Shown: piece by piece, positions 14,662 to 33,000 of the stretch
Layout: every line of letters begins with the position of its first letter
Numbering within the stretch: the stretch's first letter is position 1
Source: Dirofilaria immitis
Lineage: Eukaryota > Nematoda > Chromadorea > Rhabditida > Onchocercidae
NCBI GenBank assembly: GCA_024305405.1
Contig: JAKNDB010000068.1
Span: forward strand, 4,654,001 to 4,718,000
DNA: 64,000 bases
Direction: 5' to 3'
Program-made: the position numbers and the translations under genes
Notes under the pieces: generated by a model
The model's input: the letters and a program-made list of their open reading frames with translations, nothing else
Databases searched by the model: none
What the model was told of the DNA's origin: nothing

Positions 14662-15020
14662 AAATGGGCTAGGCCTATTAATAGTAATTTTATCCAAATA
14701 GCTTTGAATATTTCAAATTTAAATTTTACTAAAGGAAGCATTATCTATCATCAATTCTGAAATTGAAGAATATCATCATTAAACGATGATCATTAAAATG
14801 GAAAGGGAATTTATTCTATTGGATAGTAAATATTGAATGTGAATGTGAATGTTATAATGAAATACTTCGATTTCTAATGAAAAAATAATTCGATTTCAAT
14901 TGTAATGGAAACCGTTGGAAGCCAACATTTAAGAAGAAAAGTGGCAAATTTTAGAAATCTATAATGATGGAATAAATGGAAATGTGCACACATACACATA
15001 GACGTTTTAATTTCCTACTA

Positions 15021-15936
15021 TTTCTTGCTCTTTTTTCGTTTCATAAATATACCATTAAATTATGTAAGAAAGTCTATATACAATTCTTTTACTATATATA
15101 TAACTGAGATGAAAAATTTGTTCTCAATGATGATATATGGACAAATTTTTGTTGACATAATGATGAAGATACGAGTAGTTAAGCTAAAATTTACCAACAG
15201 ATGATGACGATATTGGAATTATCATATTTTAACTGAAGCCAGACTCAAATATTATTGTGATATCTGAACAATTCATCATCAAAAATAATATTAGCCTGAG
15301 ATAAATAGCGAAGAATAATACCAAAAATAATCGAAGCAAAAAAAAGAAAATAAACAACGAAAATTAATTAGATATAAATAAAAGAGATAATGACTAATGC
15401 AATTATCATTATTGTAAAAAAATTATGGCAATGAAATGATATTCGTTCGAGAATGACGAGGGCCATAATTATTATTTTCTAATTTCCTTTTTCTTCCAAT
15501 TATTCACTATTAGTTTCAAATTTTTATTTTTTTCGAAATTCAATTTATAAAGTACATTTGAATTGGAACTTTTGCTTTTAACAAATATTTCCGTGTTGGA
15601 AAAATTATTTTAAAGAAAATTTTTATCAAATCTCATGGGATGTATCAATGTAAGAGCAAAATGAAATATATAAGAAAAAGTTATTATCAAAATTGAATTC
15701 TATTTATCGAAATATTCAAGAAATTGGAAAAATTTATGCAACTAGCTTTTGTTTTAATTCTTCTTATTTTACTATTTGAAATTTTTGTTTTTCTTCAAAA
15801 TTTTGAGACAAATTTTAAGTCTTACATAAATTTTGAAATGAATTTTTAAATTAAATTTTATTATATAGGCATTGGAAATGACAAAAATTAAAGAAAATTC
15901 TCGAACTTTTATTAAAATAATTCTTTTATAAAATTA
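15021..15936 (+). repeat. Direct repeat copy 1 (about 915 bp)
   Basis: Matches 25645-26559 in the same orientation at a constant offset of about 10,623. The only difference I found by eye is one T in a T-run near 15031. Ends are TTTCTTGCTC and ATAAAATTA. It has no TG...CA termini, no primer-binding site and no gag/pol between the copies, so a conventional LTR element is not supported. A diverged third copy of part of it lies inverted at 20851-21028. Confidence 0.9.
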
Positions 15937-18187
15937 TTTTCAAAACAGTTCAGAAAATTTTACATAATAATATTATGCGAAGTTTTCTAATTTTTATTTC
16001 TCTTTTTAAAGCATTTAATTGTTCATCGTTTGAATGATTTCAAATAAGGAAAAGATGAAGAAATTTTATTGTATTAATACGAGAACAGAAATTTATTCTA
16101 ATTTATTTTAAGCTTCAAATCAATCATGTATCGTATATTTTATGAAATTTTCAAGTAAAGAAAAATAAAAAAGTGATTGCTAATTTTAAGTAATAAAGCT
16201 GATTTCATGGTAATTTATTGCATATCGAAATGAAAGTAATTTATTGAAATACTAAAATTTAAGATGACAATTGGAAATTGTGGTATAGAATCTAATTACA
16301 TCAATGCAAAAAAAGGAAAAAAAATTGAATGATATAATTTGTGAAGGATGTTTAATCTAATCTTTAATTTGAAGATCAAAAATTAAAAGAGCTGCAAATG
16401 ACATTTAATGTAAAGAAGCTTAACTTATCCAACGATATAAATTTATAGGAAGAAAAGTAAAAAGATATAAATCTGACAAAGGTGGGAGAGAAGAACAAAA
16501 AGGATATTAGGATGGGATGAAAAACAATGAGGTGAAGAGGTCATTGAATATCAAAGAAAAAATTGCAAATGAAATGGAAATGAAAAGAGAGGCGAGACAA
16601 CGAACTATATTTTAGCAACTATATTGATAATGGTCAAGAACTCTTCAGATAATGGTCAAGTTCTGGAGGAGAAGAGCAAGAACTGCAATCCATCAAGACT
16701 GAGAAGACGACTTGTTAGCTTTGCTAACATTTATTACATTATTGAAATATTCATTCGACTACCCATTTTCACTTATCTATAGAATTGGAAGAATGGACAT
16801 GGCAAATTGAATTTAAAAGATTTCATTTTAGCTGATAGCGAAGGAATGAGAAAAGTTTTTAAAAGTATCAGTGATTTGAACGATGTTTCAATCTGGCAAA
16901 ATTGCTAATTCAATAAAAGCAAATGCCATATTCAAATGATTTATCCTTCCAATGGCTAAGATTACCGCGAGAAAAATAATACTAATTTGTGATTGTTCAC
17001 TAATAAATAATAAAATGAGCCTAGGATAAAGTATCTGATCAGGAGATGAAATAATATCCCTTTTTTATTTCATTATATTTTCATCTTTTATTATTTCCTA
17101 TCTCTTAAAGATGCGAACTCTGTCTTATAGTTATTTCATTCCGATATAACGAAAAATTTGGGAACTGAATTAATCAGAAATGAATAATTGAATCAAAATG
17201 AACGAATAAATCGTTCCGTTCAATTAGTAGCCGAAATATAAGATTAAACATTTATGTTAGCATTTCATCAATAGAAAAAATATTTCTAATTTCAAAAATT
17301 TATATGTAAACGGAAAATTGATTATAAGCATGCTTGAATTCTCAAATGCATGCATGAATAGCCATTTCTAAAATCGTTTAACTTTCGAAATTTCAATAGC
17401 CTATGCCAAGATTTTTAGCCATTTTAATGCTCTTTTTGAGATGATCTGAAAATTTGCATCTAAATTCTTCGATGAAACATAAATTATCAACAATTGTCAA
17501 ATTTTTCGATCTAATTTATTCATCCCATTGTTTGTTTATCAATAAGTCATAAATTTCTAGCAAATTAATTTAATTTGAATGAAAAAAATTGGAATAAAGG
17601 TATTAAGATTAAGAGAAGAGAAAAAATGAACATTGTAAAACGAAAGGGACTTCTCCACAAATGAACTTTGTAAAATTGAAATACGAAAAATTGTTATCAA
17701 ATATTAGTTAAACTGATGTTGATGGTGATAGAAAAAGAAAGAGAGAGAAAAGATAATTTGGTAAAATGGAAAATTTAGGAAGTACTTGTAAACAGAGAAT
17801 GGAAAAGGAAAAGGGAAAAATTGTTTGACAAATATTGTTGTCAAACAAAATGATAGTATGCAAAGGAAAAATTTCATCTGTCAAGAGTAATAATCATTTA
17901 TCGATTGATTGATTCATGTCAAATAAATAACGAATTATAGATAGTACACTCCTTTGAATAGAATAGATAGAATGAATAACTGAATTTCAATCTGTACTTT
18001 TTAGTCAACAATAATAAAATTATTAATGAATAATTGAGAACAAAAAATAATTGATCATTTGCTTCAAGCGATACATTTACTTCAATAATATTTAGATTTC
18101 TCGAGTATCAGTTAATCTCGGAGAATGACGGATTGTATAGCATAATAAATAATTTCATCAATTTTCTTTTGGTATCCGATGATAGCG
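15937..18187. other. Gene-free stretch between direct repeat and palindrome arm
   Basis: AT-rich and no recognisable coding. It includes purine-rich patches near 16440-16600 with many GAAAA runs. Confidence 0.55.
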
Positions 18188-20846
18188 AAACCGAAGCGCT
18201 CATTTCGATTTTCACAATTATCAAAAATAGAAGAAAGAAGTCACCAAGACAGATATATTGTTAATTCAAATTTCGTCTCATATTCGAGCTTTAACAGCTA
18301 TTATTGCTAACCATGGAGACAGGCTAAAGGAAAGAAAGAAAAATAACATAATCAGAGTAATGGCCGCGTTCATTGAAATAAACTTTTTTACAAGGCATAA
18401 ATTCCTATACCAAAGATCGAATCCATAATACTGGAAATGAACGAATGAATGGAATACGAAATATGATGCAAATAATAATGTTAATTTATTATAAAATAGG
18501 AATTTCAAAATTTTTCAAAAATTTTGAAAATTTTTCTGATAAAAAAATTAATGGATTGCTGCGATAAAAGATAAATTGGATGAGTGATCAATTAGAATGT
18601 GAAGAAGTCAACGAAAAGATAAGAAAAAGAGCGAAATTAATCAATCAGCTAATGAGGAAGTAGTATTGCAAAGATATTCTAATCACTATGAATCTATCTT
18701 AATTATTCGATTTAATGAAATTTGAAAATCCATTTTCTTCGAACGTTTTAGTGCAATAACCATAAACGCATAGATAATATATGCAAAATAAGAATTGTTA
18801 TTATGGAAAATTTGCATAAAATATTGGCAAATGAATCATCAATAATGTGAAAAGTAGATATTGTGTAACTTAGTAACGAATAATTTATTTTATTTCCAGA
18901 ATCATTTGATCAGTTTCATTAATTTCGGAATGTTTCTAGTCAATGTGAAAATGGTTTTAAAAAAAGTTTGGGTTTATCATATTTGAACTGTTTCTTTCTC
19001 CTTTCATGACAATTCAATTTTCTGTTTTCCCACTTTCGACAGGTGAGTAAACTTGAAAGAAAAAAAAGAGAATTTTTTCCATTTTTCATTCACCATGAAA
19101 AGTAAACGTTTTTGTTCGAAAATTCAATTGCAATTCATTGAAAGAAAAAGACAAAATAAAATATCCAAAAATCAGGCCAAACATGTCATTGAACTTAAAT
19201 TAAAACAAAAAACCGAATTTATAGCATAGTTGTTTTTCTTTCTAAAAATTTTTAGCATTACAATTTTAATAATAACAACAAACTATTAAGAATTTAATAA
19301 TAATAAATTGAAAATATTTTTACATTCAAAATTTGTCATCTATCAGGAATTTTACGTCAAGCATGGAATCATATAAAATGCGAAATTGATTATTATGATT
19401 TGGTAATTTTATTGTTTCTAATAGTAATAGTATTTATAAATAAATATAATCTAAATTTTATTATCACTTTTTTGGAATTAATTAAGCGAAATATAAAAAA
19501 TAATGGAATAAAGAAAGGTACAAGCAATGCATAAAACAACTTTAATACTATATGAATAAAAATATGACAAAAACACTAATATTCCTGGAAGGATTCTAAA
19601 TTGGGTTCTGGAAAGATTGAATAAAACAGTGAGCCAATTTCATAAAATAGATAAAGACATACGATCAGCATTCTTTATGGGAAAAAAAATGCAACAAATG
19701 TGAAATTCTAGAAGAATCTGAAGTGAAAATTAATAGCACTATCATTCATATCATTTATTGATTATTAAGTCGTATTATCTCTTTGTTCCAATAATTCCGG
19801 AAATTTATTTTTCAATGAATATCATGATATCTTCGGGAATCAAATCGATTTCAAAAAGAGTTTATCAAACATGTCGGAAAACCTAAAGAAGTTCTATGAT
19901 CCATAATTGATATTCAGATTTAAGAAGTTGCTTTTCACAATCCATGGATGATGTTCAATGAAATTTCTGTAATATATTCATTGCCATAATAATATCGATT
20001 CTCATTGCTTACATATATTTCTTACCGCCATTATATGCTATTTACTTACTCCTATGTATATCAACAAATATAGCTAAATGCAGGAAAAACAGACTTCCTT
20101 TTTTCCGATCGGTTTCGCCCTTTTTCTATATGACATAATATAATATTGATTTATTTCATCTATATACAGATGGTCTATTTATCGTGAACCTCATATGATT
20201 ACTCTTTACTATATCCTACCTTATAAAAGATATATTTAGTAATGTATTACTAATCAAAGAATTTTTGGTCATTATTCAATAAGATTCCAATGATAAACGA
20301 TCAATCTAAAGTCAGTAGAAACAAAATCTCTCCTTTCTCTCAGAAGAAGAAACTCAAAAAAACCTTTAACAATCTATCTCCAAGTGATGGAACAATTTCT
20401 TCCTGTTATCAATGTTAGCATTTTCCAATCAATAAACCTTTCTAAATATAAATTATCTGTGAAACATTAATTCGCTCTTATACATCAAAGATAAAGAAAG
20501 AATTTTATATTTTTTCATGACAAATGTGATAAAGAATAAAATATTTTTGCCATGGATTAAATTAACATATATAAAAAAATCATGTGACAAAATTGCTATC
20601 ATGTGAATTATTATCATTCCATTATTATCATTCAAAACTTTTCATTTAATTTTCATTATTTGGCCACTAAGTCAAATAGGCAAAGCATGAGTAGCAAAAT
20701 AATGAAAATATAATTTAACAAATTTCATAGTTTTGGAATTGAAATTTTTTCCTTTGTATGACTATGGCAAAGATAACTTCTTCTGTCAATATAATCAAAG
20801 GGCTTTCGTTGTTTGAGTAGATTTCTATGCACGCATTTATGTTTCT
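18188..20846. repeat. Left arm of a large inverted repeat
   Basis: Reverse complement of 21970-24629; coordinates of paired bases add up to 42816 or 42817 throughout. Differences seen are a few substitutions (for example near 18251) and one-base indels, mostly in homopolymers (near 19060, 19075 and 20750). The outer end begins AAACCGAAGCGC. The innermost 40 bp copy the tail of the zinc-finger frame. Short mirrored frames of 76 and 60 codons occur in both arms but are hydrophobic, AT-driven and unlike known proteins. Confidence 0.95.
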
Positions 20847-20850
20847 TATT

Positions 20851-21028
20851 CCAGGCTAATGTTATTTTTGATGACGAATTGTTTAGATATCACAATAATA
20901 TTTGACTCTAGTCTCAGCTAAAATGTGATAATTCTAATGTCGTCATCATTTTTTGATAAATTTTAGTTTAGCTACTCGCATCTTCATCATTATGTCGACA
21001 AAAATTTCTCATATATCATTGAGAGCAA
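20851..21028 (-). repeat. Diverged inverted copy of the 915-bp repeat (part)
   Basis: Aligns as reverse complement to about 15128-15300 (TATCACAATAATATTTGA and TCTTCATCATTATGTC are conserved), with many substitutions. It is clearly older than the two direct copies. It lies in the palindrome loop. Confidence 0.85.
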
Positions 21029-21245
21029 ACATTTATCCATACGCTGATAATTCGTGATTCATGTTAAGATGGACGCTAATGAAGTGTCGTTTTCAGTCCG
21101 TGTATATTTCTTACGTCTAAAATTGTCAGATAGATATCTTCCAACTTAGACTTATCACTTTTCTTTATTCTTTTGCAGGAGTTATATATTGGTTTGTAAA
21201 ACAAAAATTGGAAGACTGCTTTTTCAACTTTTATTTAAATAAAAA
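21029..21245. repeat. Second repeat family, loop copy
   Basis: Reverse complement of about 27655-27888, with scattered mismatches and without the 25-bp duplication seen in that copy. It contains a short ATG-initiated frame at 21069-21101 ending in a possible CGT|gtatat donor. That could be a first exon for the zinc-finger frame, but the other copy has an extra T that changes this frame. Confidence 0.8.
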
Positions 21246-21510
21246 AAAAGTTAATGTTTTGAGATTATGAAAGGAGGGCAAAAGTAAAGCACAAAAATTT
21301 TATACATTGAATTCCTCAATTAATTATTTCAATTCGGTATCATAAAATAGCAAAACTAATATTCTTTTTTAAGTCATTACTATCGAACTTTTTCTGAAAT
21401 ATGGTAAATTTGAAATGATAATTAAATATTCAAAGATTTTACATATTAATTCGTCTAATTGCGACTGTTTAAAAATTCTAGGAAATTCAGGTTGTTTCAG
21501 GCAATAAATG

Positions 21511-22010
21511 GAATCGATCTACTAAATCAAACAGGAATTATTGAACATTTGAAGCAAAATTCTGCAACACAATTGATTTTTGATACAAAAGATGTAATCG
21601 AAGAAAAGAAAGATAATGAAGAAATGATGAATATAATTAGCAATTTTATCACTGATGCAGATAAAGAAACGTTATGTAAAATATGCGGCACGAAATGGAA
21701 ATATCCATCCCACCTGAAAAGACATTTGGTAAAACACACAAACGTAAGGAAGTTTAAATGTGATCAGTGCAATGCAACATTTAAATCGTTTTGTTATCTG
21801 AAAAATCATTTCTGGAAACATTCTAGCGAACCACATTTTGAATGTAAATTATGTGACAAACGATATACACATAACAAGAATTTGTTGCAACACAAACTAC
21901 AAGTGCATACTGACGGATTATTGAAATGTAATGACTGCGGTAAGAAATATAAGCGTAAGAGTAATTTGGAGAAACATAAATGCGTGCATAGAAATCTACT
22001 CAAACAATGA
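21511..22010 (+). CDS. C2H2 zinc-finger protein with four fingers (terminal exon, inside palindrome loop)
   Basis: An open frame with four classical C2H2 fingers (C-X2-C-X12-H-X3/4-H): CKICGTKW...HLVKH, CDQCNATF...HFWKH, CKLCDKRY...HKLQVH and CNDCGKKY...HKCVH. They are spaced by about seven residues and come after an acidic, low-complexity stretch (EEKKDNEEMMN). Such proteins bind DNA or RNA in the nucleus; the target cannot be inferred. The frame is open from 21459, but no good ATG is present until about residue 39 of the exon. TTTCAG at 21500 suggests the exon begins at 21501 or slightly upstream, with 5' exons elsewhere (a candidate is 21069-21101). The stop codon TGA (22008-22010) is mirrored in the left arm as CGA. 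It may be a host gene or a gene carried by a mobile element. Confidence 0.72.
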
Positions 22011-24629
22011 TAGCCCTTTGATTATATTGACAGAAGAAGTTATCTTTGCCATAGTCATACAAAGGAAAAAAATTTCAATTCCAAAACTATGAAATTTGTT
22101 AAATTATATTTTCATTATTTTGCTACTCATGCTTTGCCTATTTGACTTAGTGGCCAAATAATGAAAATTAAATGAAAAGTTTTGAATGATAATAATGGAA
22201 TGATAATAATTCACATGATAGCAATTTTGTCACATGATTTTTTTATATATGTTAATTTAATCCATGGCAAAAATATTTTATTCTTTATCACATTTGTCAT
22301 GAAAAAATATAAAATTCTTTCTTTATCTTTGATGTATAAGAGCGAATTAATGTTTCACAGATAATTTATATTTAGAAAGGTTTATTGGATTGGAAAATGC
22401 TAACATTGATAACAGGAAGAAATTGTTCCATCACTTGGAGATAGATTGTTAAAGGTTTTTTTGAGTTTCTTCTTCTGAGAGAAAGGAGAGATTTTGTTTC
22501 TACTCGACTTTAGATTGATCGTTTATCATTGGAATCTTATTGAATAATGACCAAAAATTCTTTGATTAGTAATACATTACTAAATATATCTTTTATAAGG
22601 TAGGATATAGTAAAGAGTAATCATATGAGGTTCACGATAAATAGACCATCTGTATATAGATGAAATAAATCAATATTATATTATGTCATATAGAAAAAGG
22701 GCGAAACCGATCGGAAAAAAGGAAGTCTGTTTTTCCTGCATTTAGCTATATTTGTTGATATACATAGGAGTAAGTAAATAGCATATAATGGCGGTAAGAA
22801 ATATATGTAAGCAATGAGAATCGATATTATTATGGCAATGAATATATTACAGAAATTTCATTGAACATCATCCATGGATTGTGAAAAGCAACTTCTTAAA
22901 TCTGAATATCAATTATGGATCATAGAACTTCTTTAGGTTTTCCGACATGTTTGATAAACTCTTTTTGAAATCGATTTGATTCCCGAAGATATCATGATAT
23001 TCATTGAAAAATAAATTTCCGGAATTATTGGAACAAAGAGATAATACGACTTAATAATCAATAAATGATATGAATGATAGTGCTATTAATTTTCACTTCA
23101 GATTCTTCTAGAATTTCACATTTGTTGCATTTTTTTTCCCATAAAGAATGCTGATCGTATGTCTTTATCTATTTTATGAAATTGGCTCACTGTTTTATTC
23201 AATCTTTCCAGAACCCAATTTAGAATCCTTCCAGGAATATTAGTGTTTTTGTCATATTTTTATTCATATAGTATTAAAGTTGTTTTATGCATTGCTTGTA
23301 CCTTTCTTTATTCCATTATTTTTTATATTTCGCTTAATTAATTCCAAAAAAGTGATAATAAAATTTAGATTATATTTATTTATAAATACTATTACTATTA
23401 GAAACAATAAAATTACCAAATCATAATAATCAATTTCGCATTTTATATGATTCCATGCTTGACGTAAAATTCCTGATAGATGACAAATTTTGAATGTAAA
23501 AATATTTTCAATTTATTATTATTAAATTCTTAATAGTTTGTTGTTATTATTAAAATTGTAATGCTAAAAATTTTTAGAAAGAAAAACAACTATGCTATAA
23601 ATTCGGTTTTTGTTTTAATTTAAGTTCAATGACATGTTTGGCCTGATTTTTGGATATTTTATTTTGTCTTTTTCTTTCAATGAATTGCAATTGAATTTTC
23701 GAACAAAAACGTTTACTTTTCATGGTGAATGAAAAATGGAAAAATTCTCTTTTTTTCTTTCAAGTTTACTCACCTGTCGAAAGTGGGAAAACAGAAAATT
23801 GAATTGTCATGAAAGGAGAAAGAAACAGTTCAAATATGATAAACCCAAACTTTTTTTAAAACCATTTTCACATTGACTAGAAACATTCCGAAATTAATGA
23901 AACTGATCAAATGATTCTGGAAATAAAATAAATTATTCGTTACTAAGTTACACAATATCTACTTTTCACATTATTGATGATTCATTTGCCAATATTTTAT
24001 GCAAATTTTCCATAATAACAATTCTTATTTTGCATATATTATCTATGCGTTTATGGTTATTGCACTAAAACGTTCGAAGAAAATGGATTTTCAAATTTCA
24101 TTAAATCGAATAATTAAGATAGATTCATAGTGATTAGAATATCTTTGCAATACTACTTCCTCATTAGCTGATTGATTAATTTCGCTCTTTTTCTTATCTT
24201 TTCGTTGACTTCTTCACATTCTAATTGATCACTCATCCAATTTATCTTTTATCGCAGCAATCCATTAATTTTTTTATCAGAAAAAATTTTCAAAATTTTT
24301 GAAAAATTTTGAAATTCCTATTTTATAATAAATTAACATTATTATTTGCATCATATTTCGTATTCCATTCATTCGTTCATTTCCAGTATTATGGATTCGA
24401 TCTTTGGTATAGGAATTTATGCCTTGTAAAAAAGTTTATTTCAATGAACGCGGCCATTACTCTGATTATGTTATTTTTCTTTCTTTCCTTTAGCCTGTCT
24501 CCATGGTTAGCAATAATAGCTGTTAAAGCTCGAATATGAGACGAAATTTGAATTAACAATATATCTGTTTTGGTGACTTCTTTCTTCTATTTTTGATAAT
24601 TGTGAAAATCGAAATGAGCGCTTCGGTTT
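21970..24629. repeat. Right arm of the large inverted repeat
   Basis: Mirror of 18188-20846. It begins inside the last codons of the zinc-finger frame and ends with GCGCTTCGGTTT. The flanks beyond the arms (TTTGGTATCCGATGATAGCG on the left, ACATTTGAATATTTTGATG on the right) show no shared target-site duplication. Confidence 0.95.
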
Positions 24630-25644
24630 ACATTTGAATATTTTGATGTGACATTTTTCATCGAAATAATCTTAAGCAGATAATTTCAATTTTTCTTTTC
24701 TTTTTTCTCATTTGATTATACTATTCTTTTGTTTTGTTTCATTTTGACAATAATTTTCTCAATATTTAAAAAAATTTTGTTTTCTTAAATTAATCAGAAA
24801 ATATGTAATGAGATTATCTGATACTACTAAGAGTTTAAGGATGCCCTAAAATGATGGTATGATGCAATGAATTGATACTGAAACAATATGAGAATGATAT
24901 ATTAAATTTTAACTAATGAATTAAAATTTAGAAATTTCCTTCTTCTTTGAAAAATTCTAATTTTTAATGTTTTATTTTAAATATTCTTTGCAAAAAATTT
25001 TGAATTTTTCTTATAATTTGTTTTCTAAATATCTCTCTTTTTAGCAAAATAAAAATTTTATTCATTAATGCATCATTCATTCACTTTATTCTCTTTTCAT
25101 TATCATTCATATCAATTTTATGATTAAAAATGATAGAGATATAATTGAAGAATCCATTTAAGAAAGGCTATTTGAATAAAATTAAAATCATTTTTTGCTC
25201 TCAAATTCAATCTTTTCATTATTCATTGAAACATAAAGTAACAAAATGAAATTGTTTCCTTTTATTGATACATACATATATATATATATATATATTTGTG
25301 TGTAGTAAACAATCTTCGATATAAATTTATTTAATTGCAATAAAATCTTACTTCTCTTTCTCCTTATTCATCTCAATTTTTTGTTTTGTTTCAAGAAATA
25401 TAAAAATTTCAAAATTCATTCTCAAAAAAAAAAAGAAGAAAAATACGTTTGTAATGCATTTTCGAGTAACGCATTTCGTATATTTGTCGCCGAAATACGA
25501 TGACGAATGTTTGACAAGAATTGAGACAGATGAAAAAAACAATTGAAATAAATAGTCAGAATTAAATGTTTAAACAATCTTTAATCATAGTTCGAGCATT
25601 ATAAAATATATTGCATTCTCGATTTAATCATCATTTTCTTATTT
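24630..25644. other. Gene-free stretch between palindrome arm and direct repeat
   Basis: AT-rich and non-coding by inspection. It contains an (AT)n run at 25271-25297. Confidence 0.55.
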
Positions 25645-26559
25645 TTTCTTGCTCTTTTTCGTTTCATAAATATACCATTAAATTATGTAAGAAAGTCTAT
25701 ATACAATTCTTTTACTATATATATAACTGAGATGAAAAATTTGTTCTCAATGATGATATATGGACAAATTTTTGTTGACATAATGATGAAGATACGAGTA
25801 GTTAAGCTAAAATTTACCAACAGATGATGACGATATTGGAATTATCATATTTTAACTGAAGCCAGACTCAAATATTATTGTGATATCTGAACAATTCATC
25901 ATCAAAAATAATATTAGCCTGAGATAAATAGCGAAGAATAATACCAAAAATAATCGAAGCAAAAAAAAGAAAATAAACAACGAAAATTAATTAGATATAA
26001 ATAAAAGAGATAATGACTAATGCAATTATCATTATTGTAAAAAAATTATGGCAATGAAATGATATTCGTTCGAGAATGACGAGGGCCATAATTATTATTT
26101 TCTAATTTCCTTTTTCTTCCAATTATTCACTATTAGTTTCAAATTTTTATTTTTTTCGAAATTCAATTTATAAAGTACATTTGAATTGGAACTTTTGCTT
26201 TTAACAAATATTTCCGTGTTGGAAAAATTATTTTAAAGAAAATTTTTATCAAATCTCATGGGATGTATCAATGTAAGAGCAAAATGAAATATATAAGAAA
26301 AAGTTATTATCAAAATTGAATTCTATTTATCGAAATATTCAAGAAATTGGAAAAATTTATGCAACTAGCTTTTGTTTTAATTCTTCTTATTTTACTATTT
26401 GAAATTTTTGTTTTTCTTCAAAATTTTGAGACAAATTTTAAGTCTTACATAAATTTTGAAATGAATTTTTAAATTAAATTTTATTATATAGGCATTGGAA
26501 ATGACAAAAATTAAAGAAAATTCTCGAACTTTTATTAAAATAATTCTTTTATAAAATTA
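25645..26559 (+). repeat. Direct repeat copy 2 (about 915 bp)
   Basis: Same orientation as, and almost identical to, 15021-15936. The sequences diverge abruptly after ATAAAATTA. Together the two copies bracket the palindrome and its flanks (about 9.7 kb between copies). Confidence 0.9.
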
Positions 26560-27654
26560 ATCTATATATTCATGCATATAATCTTATATTCCAAGAATAT
26601 ATGTAATCGGTGAGGAACTTTCATCAAATATTTTCGTACTTGCTAATAATATTCGAAATATTTATTCTATCATCTCTATCATATAGCACCATAGCAGAAT
26701 AATGGATGAAAAATTGTTTATATCTATTACTAATTCATTATTACATATCTACATTAATGCAGTACTTAATTTAAATAAGTTTATTAAATTGACACATTGA
26801 TAATTTTAATTTACTTTTTATTGAATTTTGGAGATAATATTGAATTAATAGATGTGAGTTTGAATAAATGAAATATTTATGCTGAACTTCATTATAAGCT
26901 TAATCTTTTGTTGCCAGAATTTAAAATAAATATTGGTTCATCCAACGTTTAAGCAGTATATAGAACGACGACTAGATTACACGTCCTAATGGGACGTTAT
27001 GTGATGAAGTGAAGCGGAATAATGTAAATAAGATATTCTACTCTGCCAATTCCACATTCCGAAAAATCAAATTATGCGAATGGTATATTCATCAAGACAG
27101 TTTTAAACATTTATCATTTAATTTCATTTGCCTGATTCGCATCTTTTTTATAGCATTCTCTTGCATATAAGTGAGTAATATTAATATTGATGATAGTATC
27201 ACCGGCATCTTACATTATAAAATTATATAATAAACTTAGATGGTACCATCGAAAGATCTAACATTTGACATTGTCTTCACATTCGATACATATAATACAT
27301 TTCGATTAACAGATTAATGATATTGTAGATTTTATAATGGAAACTGCTAATGAACAACAAACGCATTTCTTTATCTTTTATCGTTTAATTTATTACACAT
27401 TCCTTGAATGACATATCTTTTGTTATGCAAATTAAAAGCGTTGTTTCTTATCATAATTGCTTGCATATTTTCAATCCTTAACTTTCAACATTGCAAATAC
27501 TATTTTATCAAATAATTATGAATTATCATATAATTATTACGAAAATTAGTATAACATTTTTCTTTTCAATAACAAAGTTCATTACTTCAAATTTTAAGAG
27601 GAAAGTAGAAAGCTCGTAAATATTATTCTAAATGTAGAAACAATTTTATTTAAA
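26560..27654. other. Gene-free stretch
   Basis: No coding signal seen. One small hairpin, ACGTCC-taat-GGGACGT, lies near 26981-26997. Confidence 0.5.
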
Positions 27655-27888
27655 CAAAATTTGGAAGAAGCAGTCTTCCAACTTTTGTTTTGCAAACTAA
27701 CATATAACTCCTGCAAGAGAGTAAAGAAAAGTGATAAGTCTAAGTTGGAAGATCAGTGATAAGTCTAAGTTGGAAGATATCTATCTGACAATTTTAGACG
27801 TAAGAAATATACACGGACTGAAAAACGACACTTCATTAGCGTCCATCTTAACATGAATCACGAATTATCAGCGTATGGATAAATGTTA
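27655..27888. repeat. Second repeat family, inverted copy with internal duplication
   Basis: Reverse complement of 21029-21245. It has a 25-bp tandem duplication, GTGATAAGTCTAAGTTGGAA plus five bases, at 27731-27778 that the loop copy lacks. Confidence 0.85.
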
Positions 27889-30002: not shown

Positions 30003-33000
30003 TCACTCAATAAATGAATCAGACTGCGGCTGTTTGTACGGAGTGAGGTCAAGTGTCAGCATTCCGGAAACAGTATAACTGGATGGGTGCGGATAAATAC
30101 CAATAATGGCATCAGCTTTATTATAAAATTCTTCTTTCAGCGATATGACAATTAATTGCATGTCAACATGTGCACGCTCACAGATGAAATTTGCAACCTA
30201 AAATTCGCTCCATAAATTCATAATTTATTAGAAACATCATTCAAATTACATTGAAGCAATTAAAGTAGAGTTTGGAAAGTCAACTAACAAAAGTTTTTAA
30301 ATGTAACAATTAAAACAAAATTCGCTCGTTGTTTCTGCAGAGTTGATAACTGCCTGACAAAATCAACATATAAAGTATAACAAAAGGATTCAGAGAAATG
30401 TTATAAACAGAGTGGGAAGTTCTACACATTTCGTAATACATTCTTGATTAGTATATTTCTTTAGGAAATCAACCTTTCCAATATTCGTGTTATCCAACGC
30501 AGCATCAACTTCATCAAGAATGAAAAACGGTGATGGACTACGAGCATGAATAGCGAAAAGTAACGCTAACGCTGCAACAGTTTTTTCACCACCACTCAAA
30601 TTATCCATCGGTCGGAAACGTTTACCAGGTGCTACACAATTGTATGCAATACCTTCAAGATAAGGCTCTTCCATATTTTCTTCGCCAAGGAATGCTTGCG
30701 CACTCTCATTGCGACTGAGTTTCTAAAAAACAATAAAGTTAAGAAAGATATAAAAAGAAGAAAATGAAAATAACAAAAGATTTGAGAACTGAAAACTGAT
30801 CTCAAATTTTGAATTATGCGAAATTTCCAAAATTTAGAAAACGATAAATCATATTACTCCAAATAAATTTAACACAAGACGATAAAAACGAATCAAAATT
30901 TAAGAAAATGACCTTGTATATGTCATCAATTTTCTGTGAAACAGGTTCGAAGCATTCATGGAATCGATGGTACCGATCAGTTTTAACTTTTTCAAATAAC
31001 AGACGAATTTTCCGTGCTTTTTTCGGGCCAATTCACATTCTTCTGTTGTTTCAGCTTCCTTCTCTTTACTATTTCCATTCTAGCAAAAATGAATTGCAAA
31101 AAAAAGCAGAACAATCAAACGATCCACTTTTCTTGAAAAACAAGCAAAAGATAAAATTTCAAACTTTCATAAACAATATCAGCAACAATCCAACAGTTAG
31201 TTTATATGAAAAACAGTAGCATATATATATTTCTCAAGCTATATTAAGTTATAAACCAGGCATACGTAGAAATTTTTTCGCTAATCTATGGAAAACTAAG
31301 GATATTTTACGCACATACATCTATACTTATATCGATATTATTAAATAATATAGAAAAAGGCATATTCGAGCAAAGCAGTAATATTAATTTTGTTAACCTT
31401 TCCTTCGCCTTCATATTCGGTGCACTGATTCGTGAAATTTTTGCTTGCGAATCACTAACTTCTTTATTAAGTTTGTCAAGAGCCTTCTTTACTTCCTCAT
31501 CATTATCAAACTGAAATCAATTTTTAAATGAAAATATATAATTTTTGTTTCTTCCCTCTTCCTACTTCCTACCTGCTTTCTTATTATTTGCTTTCACTAT
31601 TACATTGACTTCTGTTTCTGCATCCTCTAGCACATAAAAGTTTATCAAGACAGTAATTCCGTTAACAATTTGGTGATATTATAAAAACTTCAAGAATTCA
31701 TAAAGTAGCAATTAAATACCTCTCTGAGATTAACTGGAAATGTTCGATAATCAACTTGTATTTGTGCCTCACGATCCATCTGCTCATGTGAGAGTTGCTG
31801 TGAATCACTTACACTTGCACTTGCAGTACCTAAAGTGGATTTATAATGACTGAGAAGAAAAAGTTCTACACCAATTATCAAAATTATCAGTTTATGATAG
31901 CATTCAATAAAATATAACTTTATGCTACTACGATTATATACGGATATATTCAACGATAAAGTCAACGATGTTAATTTTCAATCATTCTTTTAATTCAGTT
32001 GCTAATTGAGATATCAGTTGTTCAAATGGTTCAGTTATTAGGAAACAAAAAACATAAAAAAAATTACTGGAGGGAATGGCGTCATCGATTTCAATATCGG
32101 CAAGAGATCCTCGAAGCAATGGTAATTTAATTCCATTCATTTTACATTGGTGTAGTAATGAATGACGCTGATGACGCCGTCTCGAAATGATTTGCTCCAA
32201 TGCAGCAGCTGTTTTCTCTGCTGCAGCTACCTAAAGAATATAATTAATTTATAAACGTATTAAAATTATTAAAGTATTAAAATTGGTCTTAGTCAAGAAA
32301 ACTAGAATTTGTGCAAAATGATAATGATATTTCAATTCTTCATTAAATTAATAAATATTTCTACCGCCAATTACTTCTAACCGTAAAAGCTACTCACTAT
32401 AGCAATGAATAGTTATATTTTAACCAATAGTTATAGATTTCTATCCGTAATAAATATCGATAACTTCATTGCCTATTACTCTTCAAGATAATAATGATTT
32501 AAAAAACCGCTTTAATTACTGGAATGTAAATTTTTTCTCTTAGACCTGTCAACATCTAATTAATTCATCAATCATGATTACTTCACGAGCAGCTTGTTGC
32601 GCAGTTTTCTTAAGCACGCTTATTTCAGCGTCACTATCTTCAACTAATGCTTTCTTTGAGACGATTGCCATTTTCATTTGTTCCAATTCACTTTCCAATT
32701 TCTTCAGTGTCTAAACGTGGAGGTGATTCTTGAAAAATCAGCAGGACAAAAATGTTAAAATCGTAAAAACATTCTAATAATCTTGCAATATTATTGATCA
32801 AGAAATAATACCTTATGTTCCTCTTCTTCTTTCTTTTTTAAACCCTCAATTTCTTTCGTTAAACGTTTTACTTTCTCAGCTTCCTGTTTCTCTTTCACTG
32901 AAAATACGAACTACGTCTTAATTTTAGAGATATCACTAATATAATACTTCAAATAATGAGTAATTTGAAAAAGATAAGCGTATAGAATCCCGAAAAAAAT

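Follow-up and report, generated by a model that had tools for sequence, protein, structure and literature searches.

A probably young, spaced inverted duplication carrying a truncated zinc-finger copy in Dirofilaria immitis

How does a chromosome come to carry two nearly identical inverted copies of the same 2.66 kb on either side of a spacer that holds most of a zinc-finger exon, and are both copies really there? The question is raised by a palindrome in the window, by which we mean the whole 64-kb stretch of Dirofilaria immitis DNA analysed here (C10:4654001-4718000), part of a contig of 12,535,412 bases in a searched genome of 86,694,620 bases and 65 contigs. The palindrome has an ankyrin-repeat frame to its left (232-549) and an SMC frame to its right (30393-30722), both on the minus strand, and is bracketed on both sides by a 926-bp direct repeat, D. 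Between 16000 and 27000 the only open frame of at least 80 codons is the zinc-finger frame, and Rfam and tRNA scans of the 64-kb window gave no matches. The arms and the bracketing repeat are as follows.

15011..15936, plus strand: left copy of direct repeat D, outside the palindrome; differs from 25635-26559 by 1 gap and by 3 substitutions, which all fall within its first 10 bases
18188..20846, plus strand: left arm, 99.6% identical to the reverse complement of 21970-24629
21970..24629, minus strand: right arm, reverse complement of the left arm; the innermost 749 bp, ending near 22718, are shared with the parental locus from C10:4382273 onward as well
25635..26559, plus strand: right copy of direct repeat D, outside the palindrome; pairs with 15011-15936

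The sequence-only reading of this DNA had described a near-perfect inverted repeat, and alignment of the arms bears this out, with 2,653 of 2,663 columns identical (99.6%), 3 mismatches and 7 one-base gaps, five of which fall within homopolymers of at least 4. Exact inverted identity extends unbroken for up to 1,106 bp; the longest such runs in five first-order simulations of the 64-kb window were 17, 17, 19, 17 and 18 bp, and in an RNA fold of the inner arms and loop the arms pair, as they must. Counted as substitutions the arms differ at 3 of 2,656 sites, two of these lying at the stop codon of the zinc-finger frame, clustered within 42 bp of the loop. The spacer, or loop, measures 1,123 bp; it has no counterpart between the arms, and parts of it have relatives elsewhere. 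Inspection by eye found no sequence common to both outer flanks. As the two copies of D bracket the locus, an LTR element with these as its repeats was considered and rejected: there were no further copies among the matches listed, and no frame of at least 80 codons lies between them except the zinc-finger frame.

That frame had been placed exactly in the loop, which proves to be not quite so, its last 41 bp and TGA stop lying within the right arm and the left arm holding only the inverted counterpart of its last codons.

21459..22010, plus strand: C2H2 zinc-finger open frame, a 5'-truncated copy of the DINM_001810 terminal exon
22008..22010, plus strand: TGA stop of the zinc-finger frame, inside the right arm; CGA in the left arm and at C10:4118035
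22664..22669, plus strand: AATAAA within the right arm, shared with the parental locus; may be chance in AT-rich DNA

Four C2H2 fingers can be counted in the frame by eye, and Pfam zf-C2H2 gives 3 passing stretches. A protein search with it led to the Dirofilaria immitis protein DINM_001810, whose gene, the parental C2H2 gene, lies at C10:4382273, 0.29 Mb from the palindrome, and has a segment of 1.47 kb in common with it; against the parental terminal exon the frame shows one amino-acid change. The parent's annotated first exon stands upstream of the common segment, which starts at 21244 in the window, and is absent from the loop copy. Because the common segment begins downstream of that exon the copy is 5'-truncated, and the absence of the parental first exon probably makes it a pseudogene; at best it would belong to a chimeric gene, should another 5' exon serve it here.

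The loop as a whole is a mosaic, in which the following pieces and one local relative can be recognised.

20847..21027, minus strand: loop piece A, inverted relative of part of D (15130-15304, 25753-25927), identical in 153 of 175 columns (87%)
21028..21243, minus strand: loop piece B, inverted relative of 27644-27887, identical in 132 of 133 columns and then in 100 of 110
21244..22718, plus strand: loop piece C continuing into the inner right arm; duplicates the parental locus from C10:4382273 as far as about 4383749, taking in the last zinc-finger exon, its stop and the 3' flank, and differs from it by 3 substitutions and 2 one-base gaps
27644..27887, plus strand: local relative of loop piece B, from sequence comparison within the window

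The source of piece B contains one additional 25-bp tandem unit. The part of piece C inside the loop (about 727 bp, compared with C10:4382273-4382999) is 2 substitutions from its source and has no partner arm. Beyond about 22718 identity to the C10:4382273 copy falls, inside a dispersed repeat that gave at least 40 further match rows at 36 places with 66-80% identity (40 of 115 candidates scored). By eye, there appear to be short shared runs at the joins of the loop pieces. The identity between piece A and D, at only 87%, means that the loop was not built in one recent step; on its divergence, piece A is either older or from a lost source. A simpler description, the loop as a single diverged copy of the parental upstream region, was rejected, the 67% identity over 469 columns of a permissive alignment being put down to the perfect match spilling over into AT-rich DNA.

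The main argument that the arms are distinct comes from the stop-codon site. The right arm has TGAT there, as does the parental C10:4382273; the left arm agrees with C10:4118035 in having CGAA. This last locus (C10:4118035-4118978), 0.56 Mb off, has about 945 bp in common with the arms and, edges aside, differs from the left arm by 0 substitutions and three one-base gaps. Because each version recurs at a different distant locus, the arms are taken to be two real, distinct sequences. C10:4118035 could be derived from the left arm, which would make it a weaker independent witness.

Similar structures exist elsewhere in the genome. Five other candidates were hand-picked from hit lists as inverted neighbouring matches of similar or equal score, which is no census and allows no frequency to be inferred; when these inverted pairs were fetched, five of five were spaced palindromes, with arm substitutions of 0.05-0.84% and spacers of 786-5,603 bp, and three of them have 10-22 substitutions between their arms.

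C10:2751799-2756770: arms 2.1 kb, 16 substitutions in 2,074 sites and 38 gap bases, spacer 786 bp
C10:3618452-3629680: arms 2.8 kb, 10 substitutions in 2,783 sites and 60 gap bases, spacer 5,603 bp
C17:6938273-6940724: arms 0.64 kb, 2 substitutions in 642 sites, spacer 1,167 bp
C25:250586-264066: arms 5.8 kb, 3 substitutions in 5,788 sites, spacer 1,897 bp
C26:2042354-2051183: arms 2.6 kb, 22 substitutions in 2,609 sites (24 in another alignment), spacer 3,587 bp

We suggest that the palindrome is, with reasonable likelihood, a real and young spaced inverted duplication on the Dirofilaria immitis chromosome, made by fold-back or template-switch repair. In such a sequence of events the last exon of the zinc-finger gene would, together with its 3' flank, be copied to the palindrome site, one end of the copied segment coming to lie within the dispersed repeat and the other being joined to inverted local pieces. 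A broken or stalled DNA end would then fold back and copy 2.66 kb inversely, leaving the 1.1-kb loop as a spacer. Fold-back or template-switch synthesis fits because of the size of the spacer, the inverted local pieces and what look by eye like short shared runs where these are joined, and no function needs assuming for the palindrome. The mutation rate of nematodes is near 2.5e-9 per site per generation, and at this rate the 0.11% divergence of the arms would correspond to the order of 2e5 generations, as a rough guide only.

The palindrome probably belongs to a known kind, the spaced inverted duplication of fold-back type. Human fold-back duplications have spacers of 766-70,466 bp with a median of 3,428 (PMC3907307), a range that takes in the spacers of the five other palindromes; they share with the heartworm palindrome the inverted copies and a spacer of about 1-6 kb, and their joins carry inserted pieces or short shared runs, of which the heartworm joins appear by eye to have examples, but they are of megabase size and mostly lie beside terminal deletions, whereas the heartworm case is interstitial and its arms measure 2.66 kb. 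In C. elegans, newborn duplicates are often adjacent and inverted (PMC2728529); they resemble the present case in their short span (median 1.4 kb), adjacency, inversion and partial gene copies, and differ from it in that the heartworm coding exon sits mostly in the spacer, with only its end in the arms. The locus would be a recent spaced palindrome of kilobase scale in a parasitic nematode, one whose component pieces still have identifiable relatives, and at least 5 more of like shape occur in the same genome. The literature matches listed contain no report of palindromes in Dirofilaria, and in one listing of 355 matches none of the 12 displayed names Dirofilaria, from which absence from print does not follow. 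Palindrome birth, and possible natural sources of dsRNA in filarial worms, become testable with read, isolate and small-RNA data.

The sequence-only reading had left the choice between youth, gene conversion and an assembly fold-back, and the comparisons above shift it towards youth. If the palindrome were older and its arms kept identical by gene conversion, which is common between close inverted repeats, the two clustered differences at most 42 bp from the loop might mark where conversion fails. Piece C, however, has no partner arm and yet shows 2 substitutions against its source over about 727 bp, so that conversion with a distant locus would be needed as well, and the 0.3-0.8% arm divergence in other palindromes indicates that conversion does not keep all arms identical. 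Because unpartnered piece C is likewise nearly identical to its source, youth alone explains the arm identity and conversion is not needed; we regard maintenance by conversion as unlikely. An assembly error, in which a single arm present in the DNA was written twice by the assembler, is in our estimate quite unlikely, even though one-base gaps make up most of what separates the arms. One MinION flow cell, with Flye and correction by the same reads, yielded a published D. immitis assembly, nanopore-only, of 110 contigs and 87,899,012 bases (PMC9179477); if it is the assembly searched here, which is suspected although the sizes differ, the homopolymer differences between the arms may be sequencing errors. 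A 1.1-kb loop made of other pieces is nevertheless unlike a simple read fold-back, the arm-specific stop-codon versions are each matched at another locus, and other palindromes carry 10-22 substitutions between their arms, all of which argues against an artefact.

If the locus were a foldback transposon, its terminal inverted repeats would measure 2.66 kb and its loop would hold a gene fragment captured as cargo, which would account for the long arms and the cargo-like loop. A Mutator/foldback family, Tm1, is reported in root-knot nematodes, its elements likewise having long inverted arms around a loop (PMC3169594). The heartworm palindrome differs from Tm1 in having no second full copy among the matches listed and no target-site duplication. 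The outer 1.68 kb of the arm is uncovered elsewhere among those matches (40 of 115 candidates scored), the outer borders show by eye neither a target-site duplication nor a shared direct repeat, and 16000-27000 offers no frame of at least 80 codons beyond the zinc-finger frame. This origin is disfavoured as highly improbable.

A different kind of alternative would give the palindrome a function, as a hairpin-RNA locus: transcription over loop and arms would yield dsRNA and siRNAs, and through these the parental zinc-finger gene would be silenced. We consider it very doubtful. If a transcript began in or to the left of the left arm and stopped close to the AATAAA at 22664, it would fold into a hairpin of about 0.7 kb. 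Its attraction is that about 749 bp of each arm match the parental gene's last codons and 3' flank at C10:4382273, giving the homology to a gene elsewhere by which hairpin-RNA loci are recognised, and that this AATAAA is present, but in DNA as AT-rich as this the motif should turn up by chance. There is precedent in D. simulans, where Nmy and Tmy are inverted repeats that match Dox-family genes and silence them via siRNAs (PMC10292708, PMC10317233). Both systems involve a young inverted repeat carrying sequence of a gene that survives elsewhere; the heartworm palindrome differs in being known from DNA alone and in overlapping mainly the parent's 3' flank. A search for the Dicer_dimer domain gave no match in the genome, but likewise none in 14 control genomes. 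In its fullest form, a newborn nematode hairpin-RNA locus silencing the parental 3' end and the C10:4118035 segment in trans via siRNAs, the proposal seems to us a long shot; if it were true, the genome's other spaced palindromes would form a reservoir for new hairpin-RNA loci. A hairpin-RNA locus is less likely than a young spaced inverted duplication for which no function is assumed.

The contents of the other palindromes vary. The spacer of the C17 palindrome had no match elsewhere in the genome search, and that of the C25 palindrome is a patchwork of dispersed repeats. The C26 palindrome has a Pao-type retrotransposon frame in its spacer and C2H2 fingers in its arms; it was reached via the zinc-finger search, so any association of palindromes with zinc fingers is biased. 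Some inverted pairs more than 100 kb apart were also seen, and at least one further inverted pair lies at C49:1951-2565 (plus strand) and 17845-18406 (minus strand).

The same genome holds five additional spaced palindromes, all picked by eye, with arms of 0.64-5.8 kb and spacers of 786-5,603 bp: C26:2042354-2051183 (segments L037 and L041), C25:250586-264066 (L039, L038 and L040), and C17:6938273-6940724, C10:2751799-2756770 and C10:3618452-3629680 (together L036, L042, and L043 with L044, in no stated order). A further inverted match pair, C49:1951-2565 (+) and 17845-18406 (-), may be another palindrome. The arms of the C25 palindrome carry two near-identical, mutually inverted frames of 220 codons, for which a Pfam search at E 0.001 matched no family, and a frame in the C26 spacer (L037 6141-6620) matches the Pfam family Peptidase_A17 of Pao retrotransposons.

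Across the whole genome the C2H2 zinc-finger frame of the loop has 163 matches, many of them on contigs C10, C15, C17 and C26; near-identity is limited to two of these, and none of the others among the matches listed exceeds 44%.

The palindrome of the window is itself flanked on both sides by a 926-bp direct repeat (window 15011-15936 and 25635-26559), whose copies show zero substitutions past the first 20 bases. Recombination between these copies would remove the entire palindrome. Tandem repeats are also present: a 25-bp unit occurs twice as a perfect tandem at window 27730-27778, inside the local inverted relative of a piece of the loop (21028-21243), while the loop itself holds one copy only. 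Near C10:4118035-4118978, the third locus sharing arm sequence, lies a tandem array of near-identical units with a 94-bp period (C10:4116686-4117468; L027 3686-4468).
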